Shown: positions 29,959-38,807 of the stretch, in pieces | Position numbering within the stretch: the stretch's first letter is position 1 | Layout of the letters: every line of letters begins with the position of its first letter | Source of the DNA: Patescibacteria group bacterium | GTDB taxonomy: Bacteria > Patescibacteriota > Minisyncoccia > Phycocordibacterales > Phycocordibacteraceae | NCBI GenBank assembly: GCA_018969385.1 | Contig: JAGWYL010000005.1 | Coordinates: 1 to 46,445, forward strand | Length of the DNA stretch: 46,445 bases | Reading direction: 5' to 3' | Program-made: the position numbers and the translations under genes | Notes under the pieces: model-generated | The model's database searches: none | Told to the model about the DNA's origin: nothing | What the model saw: only the letters and a program-made list of their open reading frames with translations

Positions 29959-30264
29959 GCCGATGTAGCTCAGTTGGTAGAGCACGTCCATGGTGGGTCG
30001 CAAGCCCTGCCCACTCGCGCGGCAACGCGCGGGTGAATCCCGAATAACGGTTAACGGCTCCACAAGCTAAGACCGTGGCCCCGTGAGATAGGCGAAGCCT
30101 CCATCTCACGGGGCCCGAACGACTGACAAGGGTGTCCCGTGAGATAGCGCGAAGACGCGGCATCTCACGGGACAAAGATACAGTCTAGCCCTTTCCCAAG
30201 TGGTTTTGAGGGAAGGTGTAAGCGAAGGACGGGGTCGTCGGTTCAATCCCGACCATCGGCTCCA
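29959..30264 (+). tRNA. tRNA-Thr(GGT) split by a group I intron, CCA encoded
   Basis: Exon 1 gccgatgtagctcagttggtagagcacgtccatggt + exon 2 aaggacggggtcgtcggttcaatcccgaccatcggctcca restore a full cloverleaf. Confidence 0.9.
29995..30224 (+). ncRNA. Group I self-splicing intron (~230 nt), inserted after anticodon position 36
   Basis: Exon 1 ends in U, intron ends in G; P1 with U.G wobble; P7 gactg(30121)/cagtc(30181) with J8/7 aaagata; S-like aagatacagtc; P8 hairpin. Confidence 0.85.
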
Positions 30265-30267
30265 AAA

Positions 30268-30306
30268 GAAAACACGGAGGTCAAGGCCTTCCGTGTTTTC
30301 TTTTTG
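30268..30306 (+). terminator. Intrinsic terminator after tRNA-Thr(GGT)
   Basis: agaaaacacgga..tccgtgttttctttttgc. Confidence 0.75.
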
Positions 30307-30372: not shown

Positions 30373-30825
30373 GTGAATCCGAAGAAACCGCGTGTCCCAT
30401 GTCCTGTGTGTGGAAAAGAGCCGGCAAGGTCTTTCTACAAATACTGCAGCAATGCTTGTCAGCATGAATTCCAATACCGTGAATACATTCACAGATGGAA
30501 AATAGCGAAGATAAGCGGTCTGAATGCGATGGGAATCGTTTCAAGCCCTGTGAAGCGTTATTTGCGAGAGAAATTCGGGAATAAATGTTGTTTATGCGGA
30601 TGGTCAAAGATTAACTCGACCACCGGCGTCGCTCCGCTCATCGCAGATCATATAGACGGCAATTGGCGAAATAATGTAGAAAAGAATCTCCGTCTAGTAT
30701 GTCCGAACTGTGACTCCCTAAGCTCGACTTTTTCTGCGCTTAACAAGGGGAACGGCAGGAAGAATCGCGAGGTAAGCAAGAGAACCTTGGAGGCGCGCAA
30801 ACTCGCCAAGAACCGAGCGATTTGA
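30373..30825 (+). CDS. HNH endonuclease family protein (GTG start)
   Basis: CPVCGKEPARSFYKYCSNACQ; CCLCGWSK..PLIADHIDGNWRNNVEKNLRLVCPNCDSL. Confidence 0.9.
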   Translation: MNPKKPRVPCPVCGKEPARSFYKYCSNACQHEFQYREYIHRWKIAKISGLNAMGIVSSPVKRYLREKFGNKCCLCGWSKINSTTGVAPLIADHIDGNWRNNVEKNLRLVCPNCDSLSSTFSALNKGNGRKNREVSKRTLEARKLAKNRAI

Positions 30826-30841
30826 TATATTCTCGCTATCC

Positions 30842-30917
30842 GCCGCCCTAGCTCAGCTGGTAGAGCAATCCCTTCGTAAGGGATAGGTCCGGAGTTCGAA
30901 TCTCCGGGGCGGCTCCA
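30842..30917 (+). tRNA. tRNA-Thr(CGT), CCA encoded
   Basis: gccgccctagctcagctggtagagcaatcccttcgtaagggataggtccggagttcgaatctccggggcggctcca. Confidence 0.95.
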
Positions 30918-38597: not shown

Positions 38598-38807
38598 AAG
38601 AATAGCTTACAGGTGACAGCAAACAGCTGACAGGGATACGAGATAATGCAAATGAATACGCTCCTTAGGGAGCGTATTCATAAGAATATCTGTCCCCGAA
38701 GGGCTGGAGGGGGCACCGTTTCCTTTCGGAATGGTTGCCGGCGGGTCATAAAGCCAGTTCTCTCGCCGCGCTCTGGATAGGTATTCAGTTGTGCGGATAC
38801 GATACCA

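Follow-up and report, generated by a model that had tools for sequence, protein, structure and literature searches.

Where group I introns interrupt bacterial tRNA genes, reviews name only cyanobacteria and the alpha- and beta-proteobacteria as hosts (PMC4033280, PMC11408192). The tRNA introns of archaea and eukaryotes canonically lie at position 37/38 (PMC4033280), and all phage introns known by 2014 sat in protein genes (PMC3984707). Group I introns in tRNA genes of Patescibacteria are, by its title, the subject of a 2025 preprint (bioRxiv 10.1101/2025.07.03.662931, cited in PMC12641178); because of that preprint the general phenomenon is already known, and its cases share, by title alone, both phylum and class of gene with the one described here. 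The window, a stretch of 46,445 nucleotides from a Patescibacteria group bacterium (assembly GCA_018969385.1, contig JAGWYL010000005.1), contains a tRNA-Thr(GGU) gene split by an insert that resembles the introns of bacterial tRNA-Leu(UAA), fMet, Ile(CAU) and Arg(CCU) genes in being small, in lying in the anticodon loop, in the U.G pair of P1 and in its omega-G, but differs from them in its host gene, its phylum, its very short P3 and the absence of any score from the Rfam model RF00028 (Intron_gpI). With the introns in 16S, 23S, tRNA-Tyr and tRNA-Asn genes of the same phylum or genome it has in common the layout of the catalytic core, whereas those introns are scored by RF00028 and the tRNA-Tyr and tRNA-Asn ones lie at 35|36; phage introns from IMG/VR carry a near-identical core and the same short P3, but in exons that are not tRNA. 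What seems to be new, then, is a lineage invisible to Rfam, with a short P3, that is common to tRNA-Thr genes and phages.

Once the insert is removed, the joined exons (Table 1) form a 76-nt cloverleaf that ARAGORN calls as tRNA-Thr(ggt) with an encoded CCA, bearing out the perfect tRNA-Thr that an earlier, sequence-only reading of this DNA had foreseen. Left unspliced, the gene receives no ARAGORN call at default settings; with introns allowed, the boundary is misplaced and the gene misread as Arg(gcg). Three genomes of the same genus (G051, G008 and G005) have an intronless tRNA-Thr(ggt), with the loop AUGGUAA, that matches the spliced sequence at 96% identity across all 76 nt, and the insertion can therefore be placed at 36|37, between U36 and A37 of the anticodon loop. 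Several of the intronless orthologues have a tRNA-Thr(cgt) nearby, and the window likewise has tRNA-Thr(CGT) at 30842. Elsewhere in the window, Rfam recognises a SAM riboswitch (S box) on the minus strand (38683-38783, 47.5 bits).

Table 1. Features of the split tRNA-Thr(GGU) gene, in window coordinates.
Feature	Position	Strand	Basis
5' exon of tRNA-Thr(GGU), positions 1-36, anticodon GGU at its end	29959-29994	+	ARAGORN on joined exons
Group I intron, 230 nt, omega-G as last base (30224)	29995-30224	+	Boundaries from intronless orthologues
P1, exon GGU with intron GCC (30009-30011), U.G at the splice site	29992-30011	+	Extension GGGU/GCCC covaries
P2, GNRA tetraloop	30012-30035	+	Comparative alignment
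P3 5' strand CCC, partner GGG 30130-30132, pseudoknot with P7	30039-30041	+	Compensatory changes at 3/3 pairs
P4 (30047-30052/30071-30076) and P5 (30056-30059/30065-30068)	30047-30076	+	Comparative alignment
P6, lengthened by dispersed palindrome CCCGTGAGAT...ATCTCACGGG	30077-30115	+	
P7 5' strand (A, bulged C, GACUG), partner 30181-30186	30119-30125	+	
P3 3' strand GGG	30130-30132	+	Covariation
P8, lengthened by second palindrome copy	30134-30173	+	
J8/7 AAAGAUA	30174-30180	+	
P7 3' strand CAGUC U	30181-30186	+	
P9.0 (30188-30189/30222-30223) around P9 (30190-30195/30211-30216)	30188-30223	+	Compensatory changes at both P9.0 pairs
3' exon of tRNA-Thr(GGU), positions 37-76, CCA encoded	30225-30264	+	ARAGORN on joined exons
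Likely intrinsic terminator of the tRNA transcript, hairpin and T-run	30265-30303	+	

The insert is almost certainly a group I intron, as the sequence-only reading had proposed, and its exact boundaries come from the intronless orthologues, its fold from covariation and a purpose-built covariance model. It has the P4-P6 and P3-P9 domains of the class with their P3/P7 pseudoknot, a 5'-exon U paired with G in P1, an omega-G preceded by P9.0, and a predicted guanosine-binding P7 with a bulged nucleotide beside a conserved J8/7. The fold of the precursor is 8.5 sd better than that of shuffled sequences. A search of relatives gave matches in 35 of 148 genomes, some of them to the dispersed palindrome of P6 and P8 alone, and yielded 21 complete tRNA-Thr(GGU) genes split in the same way. 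On an alignment of 19 introns the P1-P9 structure leaves 94.8% of cells paired, with changes on both sides at 28 of 54 pairs; none of 500 shuffles scored as high, and slid controls reached at most 43% paired. Across the 82-sequence alignment of all matches the covariation score was 0.487 against 0.150 when shuffled.

The details on which the earlier reading had relied are kept among 76 tRNA-Thr introns at the same site: the exon ends in U and the intron in omega-G in all 76, the U.G wobble of P1 is present in 75, P7 (GACUG/CAGUC in the window, as claimed) is invariant with its bulged C in all 76, and J8/7, claimed as AAAGAUA, mostly reads NAAGAUA. Within this set, all three pairs of P3 and both pairs of P9.0 have undergone compensatory change. 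Changes of this kind back the P1 extension, P2, P3, P5, P6, P8, P9.0 and P9, while P7 and most of P4 are unvarying among the Thr introns and so gain no covariation support there; P7 pairs in every copy, and in the wider set two of its pairs show compensated variation. An insert of another kind, a protein-spliced bulge-helix-bulge intron of archaeal type, would suit the anticodon loop, the usual place of such introns, but it is scarcely credible for an insertion at 36|37, not the canonical archaeal and eukaryotic 37/38 (PMC4033280), that encloses a full group I core with P3/P7 pseudoknot and omega-G.

The anatomy of the group I intron supports ordinary two-step splicing with guanosine, which we infer for the tRNA-Thr precursor. 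The precursor would fold into a ribozyme core of P3-P9 and P4-P6 domains, and in P1 the anticodon GGU would pair with intron GCC, presenting U36.G to the core. Free guanosine, bound in P7, would attack after U36, and the freed 3'-OH of U36 would then attack after omega-G, so that U36 and A37 become ligated and the 230-nt intron is set free; the resulting tRNA would be the sole tRNA-Thr(GGU) detected in the genome. For P10, no obvious partner is seen in the window intron.

A check proposed beforehand, a search with the Rfam model, came back negative: RF00028 gave no match to the window intron at its gathering threshold or at E<=10, nor any to five homologous introns. We put this down to the sensitivity of the model, since the fold is set by covariation and by R1, the covariance model built from the tRNA-Thr intron alignment; the RF00028 gathering threshold, below which the intron falls, is the operational criterion of one model and not a structural definition. 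RF00028 does detect further group I introns in this genome, and those in 16S, 23S and tRNA-Tyr/Asn genes score about 47-62 bits. The P3 of the tRNA-Thr intron is unusually short, with three standard pairs and a U.U in fourth place, and this CCC/GGG helix may be the reason for the failure. R1 gives weak matches (20-34 bits) to introns that split 16S, 23S and tRNA-Tyr genes in the phylum, and because RF00028 recognises these at 47-55 bits the Thr family is tied to the known group I class.

That Rfam is blind to the intron might also be expected of a dead or degenerate one in a non-functional copy of the gene, and in a genome 92.6% complete a spare could lie outside the assembly; we think this very improbable, given invariant core residues, helices kept by compensatory change in 76 copies, and exons that pair perfectly. 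The 92.6% complete assembly was searched for an intact spare tRNA-Thr(GGT), which the sequence-only reading had named as evidence against itself, and none turned up: the 38 tRNA matches above the Rfam cut-off, once typed, include no other Thr genes than TGT and CGT. Of the 288 Thr codons in ten window ORFs (some unconfirmed as genes), 111 are ACC or ACT, the two that this tRNA would read, and a working tRNA-Thr(GGU) is therefore presumably needed by the cell.

One palindrome, CCCGTGAGAT...ATCTCACGGG, stands at the tips of both P6 and P8 (30080-30112 and 30136-30171) and is a small dispersed repeat, with two more copies in the same genome, including one at C24:18250-18335 (L171), and single exact copies in four others (G001, G007, G022 and G099); its loci outside the intron have no Rfam match. 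The introns at L044 and L052 carry different palindromes in P5, P6 and P8, and these helices therefore seem to serve as insertion points for small palindromic repeats.

The earlier reading had called Thr(GGU) an unusual host, but it is no one-off: it is the regular site of this intron across Patescibacteria. Strong R1 matches, defined as those above 100 bits, turned up in 45 of the 399 order genomes and in 18 of the 389 sampled from the phylum, and every one of them is an intact tRNA-Thr(GGU) split at 36|37. A scan of named species genomes for the core pattern returned at least 120 stretches; among the matches listed, nearly all are from Patescibacteria (Kaiser-, Taylor-, Nomura-, Yanofsky-, Wolfe- and Saccharibacteria and others), the remainder being one Niastella populi contig and one Oscillospiraceae MAG. 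The 78 other loci among the matches listed all exceed 100 bits with R1, and those inspected with their flanks are tRNA-Thr(GGU).

The Niastella populi copy is an intron-bearing tRNA-Thr(GGT) on a 300-kb contig of an isolate of this Bacteroidota species (L203:5227-5419), adjoining a tyrosine recombinase and a conjugation-type ATPase, and reflects either contamination or transfer by way of an integrative element. Genomes assigned to two families (L094 and L104, in G411 and G273) have tRNA-Thr, intron and flanks that are almost identical, through either recent transfer or a binning error. Other tRNA genes of the phylum are split as well. In the genome of the window, tRNA-Asn(GTT) is interrupted at 35|36 (L103:821-1123) by an intron that Rfam recognises at 62 bits (match at L103:843-1077, C31:42842-43076), and in other Patescibacteria tRNA-Tyr(GTA) carries group I introns at 35|36 (L130:1792-1996, L136:843-1053 and L193:4709-4946), close to tRNA-Thr intron genes.

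Beyond cellular genomes, BLAST of the intron against phage records gave no match; the core pattern matches 19 IMG/VR contigs, with flanks that are not tRNA, in agreement with the protein-gene setting of phage introns (PMC3984707). The introns of these contigs (L306, L309, L311, L307 and others) have the near-identical core CCCGAAU...CGAACGACUGACAAGGG...AUACAGUCUA and, where aligned, share both core and short P3 with the tRNA-Thr introns, the best R1 match per contig scoring 43-124 bits as against more than 100 for the Patescibacteria tRNA-Thr copies. On L306, three such introns interrupt a single reading frame. It stays open when they are removed at suitable G-ended 3' sites, whereas unspliced it meets a stop no more than 13 codons after each 5' site; for two of the three, the 3' boundary given by the model was displaced by a few bases, and the reading frame decided which G-ended site to use. 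Introns of the lineage at L311:2506-2704, L313:9914-10118, L300 and L181 lie in a gene whose product contains repeats that, by eye, resemble the variable region found in targets of diversity-generating retroelements, and on L311 a frame judged by eye to be reverse-transcriptase-like follows the intron-bearing gene.

The tRNA-Thr introns may, at somewhat below an even chance, be a branch of an undescribed, Rfam-invisible lineage with minimal P3 that moves between phage genes and Patescibacteria tRNA-Thr(GGU). Among tRNA-Thr genes the intron has probably spread by inheritance, loss and occasional transfer; a tree of the introns, over 187 columns, is too weak to separate inheritance from transfer, or a phage source of the tRNA-Thr introns from the opposite direction.

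A different account, compatible with a group I intron, is that the intron is not mainly inherited but continues to move actively between phages and tRNA-Thr genes, whether through reverse splicing or with the help of a freestanding HNH endonuclease such as that at 30373-30825. The patchy presence of the intron within one genus would fit, as would the existence of phage relatives, the recombinase beside the Niastella populi copy and the near-identity of L094 and L104 across two families, where contamination is possible; we consider such mobility rather unlikely, because strong matches in the order and phylum genomes are always in the same tRNA at the same site and the presence of HNH genes does not track the intron. 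The HNH gene of the window, identified by PHROGs matches, lies on the plus strand between tRNA-Thr(GGT) and tRNA-Thr(CGT). Its relatives occur near tRNA-Thr genes at 12 of 82 loci, whether the intron is there or not, and one at 43% adjoins tRNA-Thr(TGT) in the genome of the window (L019). A link between HNH gene and intron was rejected, the gene being present at 8 of 52 intron loci and 4 of 30 intronless ones (Fisher p=1).

The phage relatives of the tRNA-Thr intron offer a testable route of spread, and a covariance model from the tRNA-Thr intron alignment would close a gap in Rfam. The gene escapes both Rfam and ARAGORN run with its defaults, so that a Patescibacteria genome may falsely seem to have no tRNA-Thr(GGU); for genomes as streamlined as these, claims about completeness and reduced decoding would have to be corrected. 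With its small size, its conservation and its many copies, this intron family is a good subject for the study of ribozyme persistence in a gene that a minimal cell needs.
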